NCBI RefSeq assembly: GCF_036173125.1
Contig: NZ_CP108054.1
Span: 5,704,001 to 5,768,000 of the forward strand
Reading direction: 5' to 3'
Length of the DNA: 64,000 nt
Origin: Streptomyces sp. NBC_00286
GTDB taxonomy: Bacteria; Actinomycetota; Actinomycetes; Streptomycetales; Streptomycetaceae
Translations under genes and position numbers: made by a program
The notes under the pieces: generated by a model
What the model saw: only the letters and a program-made list of their open reading frames with translations
What the model was told of the DNA's origin: nothing
Databases searched by the model: none
Part shown: positions 25,459 to 35,737 of the stretch, in pieces
Position numbering within the stretch: position 1 is the first letter of the stretch
Layout of the letters: each line of letters opens with the position of its first letter

Positions 25459-26802
25459 TCAAGCCCCGGCCATCCACCGATCCGGCCGGGCCTCCCGCCG
25501 CCCCGTCCGCGACCGGTCCGCCTGCCCGTACAGCAGCTCCGCCGCCTCCGAGGCGTCCCGCAGCCGGGCCGTCACCGTCTTGTTGGCGCCCGTCTCGATG
25601 TGCACATGGGCCAGCCCTTTGGCGCGCATCCACGGCCCTTGCTCCATGCGTACGCTCTGGACCTTGCCGTGCGGTACGAGCGCGAGGCTGCGGCGCAGCA
25701 GCCCGTGCCGGGACGCGAAGACGGTGTCGGTGACGGCAAGTCCGTAACCCCGCCACCAGAGCGGCATGCACCAGCGAGCCCGGCGCGGCGGTCGCGACAG
25801 CGCACCCGGCACCGTCACGCCCGGCAGCACCCGCGCGATCACCGACTCGGCGACCTCGCGCGGAGCGACCGGCACGAGCACGGAGTTGGACGAGCCCGCC
25901 ACATCCAGCTCGACCCGGACCCAGTCCCGTCGCCGCCACAGCAGCGGTTCGACGATGCGGACGGTCTGTACGCGCCCGGGCGGCACCGTCTCATGCGTAC
26001 GGTCGAGCAGTCCGTGGTCGAGACGGAGCCCGTCCGGGGAATCGCCCACGGTCCAGTCGTACTCGCCGACGAAGCGCCCTACGCTGCTCGCGCCCGCCGC
26101 GCCGAGCAGCGGCAGCGCGACCGCGAGGACCGTCCACAGGCTGCCCGAGAGCCACCACACCAGCGGTGGTACGACGAGCGCGGCGACCAGCGATCCCCAG
26201 GTGGCGCCCGACAGCACCAGGGACACGGCGAGGACCCGGGCCGGTACGTGCAGCAACTGCCGGGCCGGCGCCTCGCCCACCTCGTGTGCCGTCTCGGGGG
26301 CGAAACCGGCGGCGCGGGCGAGGAGTTCGGCCCGTAGAACACGGGCTTCGTCCTCGCCCAGGAAGGCGAGTTCGTCCTTCTTGTCGGTCCCTATCACGTC
26401 GAGTTTGAGTTTGGAGACGCCCGCGAGGCGGGCCAGCAGCGGCTGGGTGACGTCGACGGCCTGGAGCCGGTCGAGCCGGATGTGTGCCGAGCGCCGGAAC
26501 AACAGGCCCGTACGGATGCGCAGTTCGGTGTCGGTCACCGCGAAGTGGGTGAACCACCAGGTCAGAAAGCCGTACAGGGCGGCGGCCGGAATGACGATGG
26601 CGATCGCGATCAGCAGGGTGCCGGTCGTCAGGTGGGCCAGCTGCCGCTGCGTCTGGTCGGGGTCGTGCACCGCCCAGCCGGCGATCACGGCGATCGGCGC
26701 CCAGGCGCGGCGCAGCGGCGTCACGGGATGCAGCCGCCGCTCCGTAACGGGCTTCTCCTGGCGCACGTCGTGCTCGACGTCGCCGATGTCTGATGTCGTC
26801 AC
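25459..26802 (-). CDS. PH-domain (YdbT-like) membrane protein
   Basis: 447 residues with three bacterial PH (bPH_2) repeats alternating with transmembrane pairs. A repeated fold marker is visible: [30 protein letters not shown], then [30 protein letters not shown], then [31 protein letters not shown]. This is the YdbT architecture; in Bacillus, YdbS-YdbT form a membrane complex linked to peptide resistance. It is coupled by a GTGA overlap to the upstream small PH-domain gene, matching a ydbS-ydbT pair. The actual role here is unproven. Confidence 0.82.
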
Positions 26803-27293
26803 AGCCCCGCCGATCTGGCCTCGCCCAGCTCCGTGAGCCGGTCCCGCAGCCGTTCCGCCTCGGCCGGGTCGAGGCCCGGAATGCGTGCGTCGGTCGCCGC
26901 TGCGGCCGTGTGCAGTTGCACGCTCGCCAGCCCGAAGTGCCGCTCTACGGGACCCGAGGTCACCTCGACCAGCTGCATGCGCCCGTACGGCACGACCGTC
27001 TCCTCACGCCACAGCACACCCCGGCTGATCAGCAGGTCGTCCGCGCGCTCCGCGTACCGCCAGGACCGCCAGTTGCGGCCCAGCATCGCCCAGCCCCACA
27101 GCAGCAGCGCCAGCGGCAGCAGCGCGAAGGTCGCCCAGCCGGGGCCGACGAGCAGGCCGAGCGGCAGCCCCGTACCGAGCGTCAGCGGCACCAGCCAGAC
27201 CACGAGCAGCAGTCGGCGCATCCGCAGCAGCCCCGGCGGCAGGCCGGTCCACACGGGCTCGGGCTCGGACTCGGTGCTCCTGGTGGTGCCCAT
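26799..27293 (-). CDS. PH-domain (YdbS-like) membrane protein
   Basis: 164 residues: two transmembrane helices ([21 protein letters not shown] and [16 protein letters not shown]) followed by one bPH_2 domain ([46 protein letters not shown]). It is the upstream half of the PH pair. I start at ATG 27293 ([13 protein letters not shown]), with CAGGGGA four to ten bases upstream; the longer frame crosses into the divergent nuoD2 gene. Confidence 0.8.
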
Positions 27294-27348: not shown

Positions 27349-28500
27349 ATGACTCCCACGAAGGAGACCACGGTCGGCATCGGCGGCGCCGCGGAGAGCA
27401 CCGACATGGTGCTCAACATCGGCCCCCAGCACCCGTCCACGCACGGTGTACTGCGCCTCAGGCTCGTGCTGGACGGCGAGCGGATCCAGCATGCGGAGCC
27501 GGTCATCGGCTATATGCACCGCGGCGCGGAGAAGCTCTTCGAGGCGCGCGACTACCGCCAGATCATCGTGCTCGCCAACCGCCACGACTGGCTCTCCGCC
27601 TTCTCGAACGAGCTGGGTGTCGTCCTCGCCGTGGAACGCATGCTCGGCATGGAGGTCCCGGCCCGCGCGGTGTGGATGCGCACGCTCCTCGCGGAGCTGA
27701 ACCGCGTCCTGAACCATCTGATGTTCCTCGGTTCGTACCCGCTTGAGCTGGGCGGAATCACCCCGGTCTTCTACGCCTTCAGGGAGCGCGAGGAACTCCA
27801 GGCCGTCATGGAGGAGATCTCCGGCGGACGCATGCACTACATGTTCAACCGCGTAGGCGGCCTCAAGGAGGACCTCCCCGCTGGATGGACCGCACGCGCG
27901 CGTGCCGCCGTCGCGGACGTCCGCTCGCGCATGGACGTGTACGACAACCTGGTGGTGGGCAACGAGATCTTCCGCGGGCGCACGCGCGACGTGGGCCGGA
28001 TGTCCCCGGAGACGGTGCACGCCTACGGAGTGAGCGGTCCCCTCGCCCGCGCCTCCGGCGTCGACTTCGATCTGCGCCGCGACGAGCCGTATCTGGCGTA
28101 CAGGGAGCTGGGCGAAGTCCTGAAGGTCGTCACGCGGCAGGAGGGCGACTGTCTGGCCCGCTTCGAGGTCCTCCTGGAGCAGACCCACAACTCCCTGGAC
28201 CTCGCCGACGCCTGCCTGGACCGGCTCGCCGAGCTGCCGCCCGGTCCGGTCAACCAGCGGCTCCCGAAGGTTCTCAAGGCCCCGGAGGGCCACACATACG
28301 CCTGGACCGAGAACCCGCTCGGCATCAACGGCTACTACCTCGTCAGCAAGGGCGACAAGACCCCGTACCGGCTGAAGCTGCGCTCGGCCTCGTACAACAA
28401 CATCCAGGCCTTGGTGGAGCTGCTGCCGGGGACACTGGTCGCGGACATGGTGGCGATCCTGGGATCACTGTTCTTCGTGGTCGGGGACATCGACAAGTAG
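27349..28500 (+). CDS. nuoD2: Orphan NADH-quinone oxidoreductase subunit D paralogue
   Basis: 383-residue homologue of complex I 49-kDa subunit (NuoD/NDUFS2/Nqo4), which helps form the quinone pocket. Family landmarks: [17 protein letters not shown] (the quinone-site His is residue 32), [63 protein letters not shown], and the C-terminal [20 protein letters not shown]. No other nuo gene is nearby; Streptomyces keep the full nuo operon elsewhere, so this is a stand-alone paralogue. The residue aligned with the quinone-contacting tyrosine is Trp81 (NRHDWLSAF). Arg58 in HRG aligns with the methylated arginine of human NDUFS2. ATG 27349 has no clear ribosome-binding site. Its 3' end overlaps the convergent methyltransferase gene by 36 bp. 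Confidence 0.88.
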
Positions 28501-29634
28501 GGCTTCTCCGGCTCCCCGGTCTGTCCGTGCTCTCCGTAGAGGGCTGTTTTCGCCGGGCAGCGGCTCGGGCAGCGGATCGGACATCGGCTCGGGCAGCGGG
28601 TTCGGAATTCCAACTGGCTGTACGAGCCAGCCGAAGTCGCCGAGTCCGCCGGGAGCCGTCAGCTCGGCGGCCTCACCGGCGCCGGCGAGGGCCCGTATGT
28701 ACGCCGTCGGGTCGGTGGAGGCCAGCGACAGCGGCGGGCGGCCGCCGCTCACGCCCAGGGCGTGCAGGGCGTCCCGCTGGGTCAGGAGGCGCGCTCCGGG
28801 CAGCGCGCACGCGTCCAGCGCCACATGCGCCGTGATGTCGCAGGACCCGTCCGGTACGGGCGCCGTCTCGCGGCCCTCGCGGAAGCCGGTGAGCGTTCCG
28901 AAGGGCGGGCGCGCGTCCGCTCGGTGGGAGTAGTCGACGGCCACGGCGAGACCCCGGTCGAGGGTGGCCACGGCGGATGCCCAGGCGGCGTCCCTGGGGA
29001 GGCCGATTTCGGCACGCAGCCCTTCGGGATGCTGATGTGCTTCGTTTGCTTCGGGGCGCTGATTTTCAGGGAGCGGCCACCACCGCGCCAGCCACTCCGC
29101 GTCCGCTCCGGAGACCGGCTCCCCGAGGGATTCGGTGCCGTCCTCCCGTACGAGGACCAGCCGTGGCACTCCGTCCGCGTCCACCTCGGCCACGTCCAGG
29201 GGCACGTTGTCCAGCCACTCGTTCGCGAACAGCAGTCCGGAGAAGCCCGCCGGAGGCTGTGCGCACCACTCGATCCGGTGGTTGAGGCCGGCGGGCCGGT
29301 CGGCGCGTTCGACGGCGTACCCGCGCGCGCGGGAGGCCACTTCGGAGGGAAGGGCCTCCAGGACGCCGGTGACCAGCTCGCCGCGGCCCGCGCCCATGTC
29401 GACGAAGGCGAGCTCGGCGGGCCGGCCGAGCGCCTCGTCGACCCGGCACAGGAGCCGGGCCACAGCGCCCGCGAACAGCGACGACGCGTGCACGGAGGTG
29501 CGGAAATGCCCCGCGGGCCCCTCAGGCCGCCGATAGAACCCTGAAGGCCCGTACAGCGCCTCCTCGGCAGCCTGCCGCCACCTGCGCCGGCCCTCCGCCG
29601 CCTCGTGTGCGTCTTGTCTCACGGCTTGTCTCAC
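28465..29634 (-). CDS. SAM-dependent methyltransferase, MidA/NDUFAF7 family
   Basis: 389-residue DUF185-type methyltransferase. SAM motif [21 protein letters not shown] is near residue 75; [19 protein letters not shown] is the family's post-motif region; [21 protein letters not shown] and the late [13 protein letters not shown] are also typical. In mitochondria NDUFAF7 symmetrically dimethylates Arg85 of NDUFS2 during complex I assembly (established). Its position tail-to-tail with nuoD2, an NDUFS2 homologue, makes that the natural substrate guess. The C-terminus has a Pro-Leu-Pro-Glu/Ser-Asp repeat ([16 protein letters not shown]). The start codon is within a tandem GTGAGACAAG repeat, so 29634 or 29622 are both possible. 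Confidence 0.82.
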
Positions 29635-33818: not shown

Positions 33819-34748
33819 GTGAGTACAGTCCCACAACCAGACCCCAAGGACCGCCCCGCGCGGCTCACCGTCGGCGTCGTCGGTGCCGGCCGCGTGGGGC
33901 CCGCTCTTGCCGCGTCGTTGCAGCTCGCCGGGCATCGGCCGGTGGCCGTCTCCGGGGTCTCGGACGCCTCCGTACGGCGTGCGGCCCAGCTCCTGCCCGA
34001 CGTACCGCTGGTGACGCCCGCGCAGGTCATGGAGCGGGCCGAGCTCGTGCTCCTGACGGTCCCGGACGACGCCCTGCCGGGGCTGGTCGAGGGGCTCGCC
34101 GAGACGGGTGCCGTACGGCCGGGGCAGCTGCTCGTGCACACTTCCGGGCGGTACGGCGCGAAGGTGCTGGACCCCGCGCTGCGGGCCGGTGCGCTGCCGT
34201 TGGCGTTGCATCCCGCGATGACGTTCACCGGCACTCCTGTGGACGTACAGCGGCTTGCCGGGTGCTCTTTCGGGGTCACCGCGCCCGAGGAGCTGCGGCT
34301 GGCCGCTGAGGCGCTGGTCATCGAGATGGGCGGCGAGCCCGAGTGGATCGCCGAGGCCGCCCGGCCGCTGTACCACGCGGCCCTCGCGCTCGGCGCCAAC
34401 CACCTGGTGACCCTGGTCGCCGAGTCCATGGAGCTGCTGCGTACGGCGGGCGTGGAGGCCCCCGACCGGATGCTGGGTCCGCTGCTCGGCGCGGCCCTGG
34501 ACAATGCCCTCAGGTCCGGCGACGCGGCCCTCACAGGACCCGTCGCGCGCGGTGACGCGGGTACGGTCGCCGCGCACATCGCGGAGTTGCGCAAGCACGC
34601 GCCGGGAGCCGTGGCCGGCTATCTGGCGATGGCCCGCGCGACCGCCGACCGCGCCCTCGCCCACGGATTGCTGAAGCCGGAGCTCGCAGAGGACCTTCTC
34701 GGGGTACTGGCAGACGGGACCGACGGCACCGAGGGAGACGCCCGATGA
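33819..34748 (+). CDS. Rossmann-fold dehydrogenase with DUF2520 domain
   Basis: 309 residues. An NAD(P)-binding Rossmann domain starts [24 protein letters not shown] (GxGxxG variant) and includes [18 protein letters not shown] and [11 protein letters not shown]; the C-terminal helical DUF2520 domain includes [18 protein letters not shown]. The gene overlaps panC by 4 bp (ATGA) and leads the panC-nadB-nadC-coaX operon. Because pantothenate synthesis needs a ketopantoate reductase and no panE is seen here, an oxidoreductase role in pantoate supply is a reasonable inference. The GTG start has GGAAGG upstream. Confidence 0.82.
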
Positions 34749-35737
34749 CCAACGCCCTGCTGCGCACCGCCGACGGGCTCCACGCGCGCGTGCGCACCGG
34801 ACGCCGTGCCGTCGTGATGACCATGGGCGCCCTGCACGAGGGCCACGCGACCCTGATCCGCACCGCCCGCGGGATCGCGGGCGGCGACGGAGAGGTCGTC
34901 GTCACGGTCTTCGTGAACCCCCTCCAGTTCGGCGCGGGCGAGGACCTCGACCGTTACCCGCGCACCTTGGACGCCGACGTGAAGATCGCCGAACAGGCGG
35001 GCGCGGACGTCGTGTTCGCCCCCTCCGTGGACGAGGTCTACCCGGGCGGCGAGCCCCAGGTCCGTATCAGCGCGGGCCCCATGGGCGAGCGCCTGGAGGG
35101 TGCCGCACGGCCCGGCCACTTCGACGGCATGCTCACCGTCGTCGCCAAGCTGCTGCACCTGACCCGCCCCGATGTGGCGCTGTACGGGCAGAAGGACGCC
35201 CAGCAGCTCGCCCTGATCCGCCGCATGGTGCGCGATCTGAACTTCGGGGTGGAGATCGTCGGCGTACCGACGGTGCGCGAGGAGGACGGCCTCGCCCTGT
35301 CCAGCCGTAACCGCTACCTCTCGGCCGCCGAGCGCCGCACCGCGCTCGCCCTCTCCCAGGCCCTGTTCGCGGGCAGCGACCGGCACGCCGCACAGGAGGC
35401 CCTACGCGCGCGTGCCCGCGAAGTGCCCACCACGCACGCGCGTGCCGAGGCCCTCAGCGCGCTGGGCGAGTCCCGCGCCGCGGCCGACGCGCACGCCGTC
35501 GCCAAAGCGGTGCCGGGCGGCCCCGCCGCGGTCCGCGCCGCCGCCCGCCTCGTCCTCGACGACGCCGCCCGTATGCACCCCCCGCTCGCCCTGGACTACT
35601 TGGCGCTGGTCGATCCGTCCGACTTCACCGAGATCCCGGACGACTACACCGGCGAGGCGATCCTCGCCGTCGCCGCCCGGGTCGGGACGACCCGGCTGAT
35701 CGACAACATTCCGCTGACCTTCGGAGCCGCCTCGTGA
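34745..35737 (+). CDS. panC: Pantothenate synthetase
   Basis: 330 residues; condenses pantoate and beta-alanine with ATP to pantothenate. Motifs: [15 protein letters not shown] (the HIGH-like HEGH for ATP binding), [39 protein letters not shown], and the KMSKS-like region [13 protein letters not shown]. The length is above the usual ~285 because of an Ala/Arg-rich insert (about residues 215-265). The stop overlaps the nadB start (GTGA). It produces the substrate that the CoaX kinase at the end of this operon phosphorylates. Confidence 0.95.

Follow-up and report, generated by a model that had tools for sequence, protein, structure and literature searches.

A MidA/NDUFAF7-type methyltransferase and the NuoD paralogue NuoD2 as a probable enzyme-substrate pair in actinomycetes

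The window analysed here is a stretch of 64,000 nucleotides of Streptomyces sp. NBC_00286 (contig NZ_CP108054.1, positions 5,704,001 to 5,768,000), in which nuoD2, encoding a paralogue of the complex I subunit NuoD/NDUFS2, converges with a gene for a MidA/NDUFAF7-type methyltransferase (Table 1). We consider it probable that this enzyme dimethylates Arg58 of NuoD2 as a dedicated maturation factor. NDUFAF7/MidA is established as acting on Arg85 of NDUFS2 (PMC3829151, PMC9006661; papers are cited by PMC number, for the passages of them available to us). Arginine dimethylation of bacterial complex I and the proteobacterial origin of MidA are already published; what our data suggest as new is that this known modification system is linked to a paralogue that belongs to a second complex. 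The original prediction, made from the letters of the window, knew of no such bacterial pair. Literature searches, with most subscription papers outside their reach, found no description of a MidA-NuoD2 pair in actinomycetes.

The target arginine and the core subunit

The nuoD2 frame is nested in a longer listed open reading frame starting at 26833. Its product matches Pfam Complex1_49kDa (PF00346, 239 bits) and the NuoD model NF004739 (381 bits, above the cut-off of 360), and scores under the cut-offs of TIGR01962 (387 versus 459) and NF008974 (397 versus 522). Arg58, in the motif HRGAEK, stands 20 residues N-terminal of Arg78 in RHDW. Alignment with Thermus thermophilus Nqo4 is gap-free from residue 19 to beyond residue 81 and places Arg58 on residue 64, the threonine counterpart of human Arg85 (PMC3829151). 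The row of the alignment table for the human mature chain pairs residue 19 with 46, so that 58 falls on 85 if the interval is ungapped. The gap-free alignment and the 20-residue distance bear out the original prediction, which had named Arg58 as the equivalent of human Arg85 at the same spacing.

We read this site across a class-level sample of 197 genomes from 76 genera (completeness filter 95). Arginine was present in all 73 NuoD2-type proteins. The same 73 proteins (72 printed segments and G224, read by eye) carry tryptophan at the quinone-binding tyrosine site, Tyr87 of Nqo4, which is the tyrosine deprotonated by quinone (PMC8042128); core NuoD keeps that tyrosine. Because Trp81 replaces it, we term NuoD2 a paralogue and not a canonical subunit; it has been described before as a detached member of nuo2 (PMC8388888, PMC3765725). 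Among named genomes, HRGAEK and RHDW were present in 80 of 80 loci, these being the best 80 of at least 575 NuoD2 relatives.

The core NuoD of this genome, at genome position 5,965,690, is 42% identical to NuoD2 and has a tyrosine at the quinone site, and its motif reads HTGIEK, with threonine at the target site. This threonine was found in 35 of 35 core NuoD proteins and arginine in 35 of 35 core NuoB proteins (our own genome, 15 other genomes with NuoD2 and 19 without), and NuoB2 carries threonine in all 35 NuoD2 genomes from which it was read. Thus, all proteins read are self-consistent beside the iron-sulfur cluster N2, with NuoD-Thr/NuoB-Arg in the core set and NuoD2-Arg/NuoB2-Thr in the second set. 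A comparable switch is described for T. thermophilus, where an arginine of the NuoB-type subunit compensates for threonine in its NuoD-type partner, and in reverse for Yarrowia (PMC8042128). On the strength of the Arg/Thr match we assign NuoD2 to NuoB2 and not to the core enzyme. Since the two switch states are opposite and each self-consistent, two complexes seem, from these sequences, to share one cell. The original prediction had allowed that the core NuoD might be the methylated protein; its threonine excludes it as a substrate at this site and leaves NuoD2, of the two, as the sole possible one.

Two further observations concern NuoD-type proteins. A third NuoD-like protein of this genome (L003, G000:C1:634050) is 31% identical and reads HKGIEK. 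Its gene lies about 6 kb from a NuoB-like gene and is possibly part of a hydrogenase-like cluster. In G209, genome searches returned only second-type NuoD, NuoB and NuoH, with one match each and no core set.

The methyltransferase matches Pfam Methyltransf_28 (PF02636) with 66.2 bits (cut-off 23.3) and shows the MidA/NDUFAF7 fold (COG1565, PF02636). The glycine-rich S-adenosylmethionine (SAM) motif and the ExxD and DY positions are all kept. Pfam, fold and motifs support its membership of the MidA/NDUFAF7 fold family, the family to which it had been assigned from the window. Structures of MidA were reportedly described by Shahul Hameed in 2018.

Compared with NDUFAF7/MidA and NDUFS2 in human and Dictyostelium, the actinomycete pair is alike in the fold family, the HRGxE target motif and the threonine of the NuoB-type partner. 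It differs in that the putative substrate, a paralogue, belongs to a second complex and its gene shares a chromosomal block with the enzyme gene, that the core NuoD has no arginine and NuoD2 has tryptophan for the quinone tyrosine, and that methylation is here a prediction only. In Paracoccus denitrificans complex I, Arg65 of Nqo4 is symmetrically dimethylated (PMC3750175), a bacterial NuoD-type arginine at the same position; there it belongs to the NuoD-type subunit of the purified complex, whereas here it belongs to a second paralogue and the core subunit has threonine. T. thermophilus complex I has Thr64 in Nqo4 and Arg83 in Nqo6 (PMC8042128), a form shared by the core proteins of the actinomycete genomes read, while NuoD2/NuoB2 show the reversed, mitochondria-like form. 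The arginine of NuoD2 and the distribution of the enzyme described below suggest that bacteria with both proteins make the same arginine modification as mitochondria.

Co-distribution and joint loss of NuoD2 and the enzyme

NuoD2-type proteins occur in at least 73 of the 197 class-sample genomes, counted among the NuoD matches listed: 72 at first, and then the divergent G224, which was the one further NuoD2-like frame when 14 of the 125 genomes initially without NuoD2 were re-examined for their extra NuoD or NuoB matches. PF02636 matched in 64 genomes, all with NuoD2. A profile of the enzyme built from 28 diverse members (A1; E <= 0.001) matched in 71 genomes, comprising 66 with NuoD2, two without (G173, G239) and three with short and weak matches; most A1 sources lie within the same sample, so the matches of source genomes are by construction. 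The three (G167, G189, G191) match over the SAM region only (56-96 profile positions, best E 4.8e-6 to 6.1e-4) and were scored enzyme-less. The Pfam search overlooked the enzyme in G134 and G209, where tblastn and A1 recovered it, so that a single absence is not firm.

Full-length enzyme is thus present in 66 genomes, all among the 73 with NuoD2, and the PF02636 and A1 searches found no full-length copy in the 124 genomes counted without NuoD2. Every one of the 66 has a NuoD-type protein with arginine in the motif. The same searches did not find the enzyme in seven NuoD2 genomes (G200, G208, G216, G224, G232, G248, G271), a group that any weak NuoD2 hidden in the other 111 of the 125 genomes initially without it would enlarge. 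Fisher's exact test on these counts (66/7/0/124) gives 7.5e-45, or 1.5e-41 with the copies in G173 and G239 scored as enzyme, without correction for relatedness. By the family labels of the sample, NuoD2 occurs in 24 families and the enzyme in 22. An order-level sample of 119 genomes had the enzyme in 119. The survey of actinobacterial co-occurrence that the original prediction proposed therefore favours the link, and the pair recurs far beyond the single strain to which, had the prediction been wrong, adjacency might have been confined. The MidA-like frames of the NuoD2-less G173 and G239 (L159:7628-8092 and L158:7254-7658) are without the SAM and DY motifs and are possible pseudo-enzymes.

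The arrangement of the two genes is variable. Within the genus (n=20) they are convergent and at most 200 bp apart in 14 genomes, co-directional and at most 140 bp apart in four, and 5-7 kb apart in two. In 45 other genomes with both genes on one contig, the enzyme gene lies upstream in the same direction in 43 (G153, whose genes overlap, is counted here although the script labelled it downstream) and on the opposite strand in two; the distance is at most 250 bp in 11 of the 45. G174 has the two genes on two short contigs. Among the named genomes (Micromonospora, Salinispora, Actinoplanes, Actinomadura, Streptosporangium and others; again the best 80 of at least 575 relatives), 77 of the 80 loci hold both genes, and the three without the enzyme offer just 253, 3381 and 3860 bp of sequence on its usual side.

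The pair is part of a conserved ftsH-fol-pan-nad block. Around 53 NuoD2 loci, the neighbours were the enzyme (46), DUF2520 (47), panC (45), the folate query (39), nadB (35) and ftsH (34). Pfam confirmed DUF2520, PanC, GTP cyclohydrolase I, an FtsH-type peptidase, DUF3180, type III pantothenate kinase and bPH_2, a bacterial PH domain, as block genes; nadB was named from an FAD_binding_2 match and its position, and the folate query from position only.

In 15 of the 45 genomes outside the genus, nuoD2 and the enzyme gene are separated by bPH_2 genes, and these make the losses informative. Among 20 NuoD2-less blocks, eight retain PH genes beside DUF2520/panC (the pair in seven, one gene in one) with nuoD2 and the enzyme gene both gone. 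In four of these eight (G185, G251, G274, G279) the folate/DUF3180 side is visible and the PH genes stand between both flanks; in the other four that side falls outside the stretch examined. No PH gene was detected in the remaining 12 blocks, several of which are short stretches. Within family f33, G192 has nuoD2, two PH genes and the enzyme gene in that order, and G279 has the PH pair only. Since the PH genes were kept and both partners lost, one contiguous deletion is inadequate as an explanation, unless the ancestral gene order differed. Joint loss, counted by genome and not by tree, is therefore better evidence for the link between NuoD2 and the enzyme than adjacency.

Distance matrices from 40 genomes correlate at 0.80 for NuoD2 and the enzyme, 0.62 for NuoD2 and DUF2520 and 0.81 for the enzyme and DUF2520, with no phylogenetic correction. 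The partial correlation of NuoD2 and the enzyme given DUF2520 is 0.64, and that of NuoD2 and DUF2520 given the enzyme is -0.06. A second nuoB, encoded elsewhere, is found in all NuoD2 genomes except G209, which has the second type only. Eight NuoD2-less genomes (G121, G145, G177, G198, G212, G242, G269, G273) also have a second NuoB match, of untyped class.

Methylation of Arg58 and its alternatives

In the mechanism that we propose, the enzyme would be catalytically active and would symmetrically dimethylate Arg58 before or while NuoD2 joins NuoB2. The side chain of Arg58 is expected beside cluster N2, at the contact with NuoB2. Methylation would then fit NuoD2 to its own partner in a second complex I that lacks the N-module, an assembly role like that of NDUFAF7 for NDUFS2.

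Several points weigh against this mechanism. The structural alignment with Dictyostelium MidA shows 19% identity. Arg58 is kept in all seven enzyme-less NuoD2 genomes, and E. coli NuoCD keeps an unmethylated arginine at the site (PMC3750175), so that conservation of the arginine does not need methylation. The loss of the quinone tyrosine means that the role of NuoD2 may differ from that of NDUFS2. Finally, the neighbourhood alone proves little, because block genes with no relation to the pair are found beside nuoD2 just as often.

The enzyme might instead act on the second complex at another residue or subunit (NuoD2, NuoB2, NuoI2 or NuoC2), with Arg58 kept for its charge beside N2, as the enzyme-less genomes and the unmodified E. 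coli arginine would allow. We regard this as unlikely, since the characterised relatives in the fold family target exactly this arginine (PMC3829151, PMC9006661) and three of the seven enzyme-less genomes (G200, G232, G248) read HRS in place of HRG, as does G240, where a run of N interrupts the enzyme gene.

It is more improbable still that the two genes are neighbours only through an old conserved block and that their joint absence reflects deletions in that block with no shared function. The equal frequency of DUF2520 and panC led us to reject adjacency alone as proof of a link, and losses were scored without a tree. Of the original argument from neighbourhood, the recurrence of the pair thus stands, and the weight placed on adjacency is reduced by the block. 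Shared inheritance of the block does not, however, readily explain why both genes are missing where PH genes stay, why order and orientation vary while the genes stay close, or why the NuoD2-enzyme correlation holds given DUF2520; the distantly encoded second nuoB also tracks NuoD2, G209 apart, yet the eight untyped matches in NuoD2-less genomes soften that point. That the enzyme is a non-catalytic assembly chaperone for NuoD2 is very improbable: its sequence is variable (mean column identity 35% in 28 members), but the SAM, EWLD and DY positions are kept in NuoD2-linked members and degenerate in the two NuoD2-less copies.

These cells offer a natural internal control, with what seem to be a threonine-type core and an arginine-type second complex side by side and the enzyme tracking the second. 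The role of dimethylarginine beside N2 is unsettled, because mutating the arginine abolishes both the N2 signal and quinone reduction (PMC8042128). Loss of the enzyme would be a way to test methylation with the arginine and the main complex I untouched.

The second complex and the surroundings of the pair

NuoD2 belongs to a second Q-module. The gene stands outside the complete nuo operon of the 14-subunit NADH dehydrogenase; its distance is about 233 kb to the core nuoD and 273 kb to nuoB2. Besides the detached D2, the nuo2 set of this genome consists of A2, B2, C2 and H2-N2; models identified B2 and C2, and gene order with sequence similarity gave the names of the others. In the 20 kb examined no E-, F- or G-type gene is annotated, E and G not having been searched for. 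The available passages of PMC9239103 describe S. coelicolor nuo2 as without NuoCDEFG and L genes, of unclear function and possibly forming a hybrid with the canonical set. In the nuo2 of our genome, a NuoC-type gene and nuoL2 (by order and similarity) are present. Since the hybrid complex was proposed there, the idea is not new here.

We examined the surroundings of nuoB2 in 42 NuoD2 genomes. At least one second NuoH-type match lies beside it in 20, of which 17 also have L-, M- or N-type second copies, one (G127) is cut by a contig end and two (G141, G186) show the H-type match only. Second membrane subunits were not found near nuoB2 in the stretch examined in 22 genomes: 21 have B2-C2-I2, and G295 has B2 only, at a contig end. 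Searched genome-wide, 21 of these 22 gave one NuoH match each, of core type, and G128 gave one match together with a short fragment. Among eight genomes with second membrane subunits, seven gave two or three NuoH matches and G209 gave one, of the second type; of the NuoD2-less genomes compared, G121 gave two core-type matches and G137 one. The enzyme is kept in 16 of the 22 genomes, and all six enzyme-less genomes examined are of this kind. KorA/KorB-type genes (2-oxoacid:ferredoxin oxidoreductase) lie near nuoB2 in 22 of the 42, in genomes of both kinds. In our own genome they were identified with TIGR03710 and PorB_KorB-type models, the beta subunit being cut by the end of the stretch and scoring below cut-offs.

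The electron donor of N-module-free complex I is an open question (PMC11238625), on which a second Q-module bears. One wider scenario, tentative and on balance doubtful, is that the NuoB2-C2-D2-I2 arm of many actinomycetes takes electrons from 2-oxoacid:ferredoxin oxidoreductase and not from NADH, and docks on the core membrane arm where a second arm is lacking. NuoD2, and not core NuoD, would be dimethylated by the MidA-type enzyme, both N2 switch states would occur in one cell, and quinone would be reduced without the usual tyrosine.

Table 1 Features of nuoD2, the methyltransferase gene and their neighbours in the window
Feature	Position	Strand	Basis
nuoD2, NuoD/NDUFS2 paralogue, 383 aa	27349..28500	+	open reading frame, Pfam, alignment
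Arg58 codon CGC (HRGAEK), equivalent of human NDUFS2 Arg85, proposed methylation site	27520..27522	+	sequence, alignment
Trp81 codon, at the quinone tyrosine position (Tyr87 of T. thermophilus Nqo4)	27589..27591	+	alignment
Overlap of the 3' ends of nuoD2 and the enzyme gene, 36 bp	28465..28500	.	coordinates
MidA/NDUFAF7-type methyltransferase, 389 aa	28465..29634	-	open reading frame, Pfam, structural alignment
SAM-binding motif DMGAGRG, residues 79-85	29380..29400	-	aligned with the glycine motif of 5ztz and 1zkd
EWLDNVP motif, residues 139-145; E139, L141 and D142 invariant	29200..29220	-	28 diverse members
D234-Y235, aligned with DY of MidA family structures; invariant	28930..28935	-	28 members
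Bacterial PH-domain protein (bPH_2)	25459..26802	-	Pfam; in other families, homologues separate nuoD2 from the enzyme gene
Second, smaller bPH_2 protein; start chosen	26799..27293	-	Pfam
Rossmann/DUF2520 gene and panC, conserved right flank of the block	33819..35737	+	block comparison, Pfam

Both reading frames agree with the coordinates, the convergence and the overlap originally reported for the pair. In several families, a bPH_2 gene pair like that at 25459-27293 adjoins nuoD2 and the enzyme gene or stands between them.
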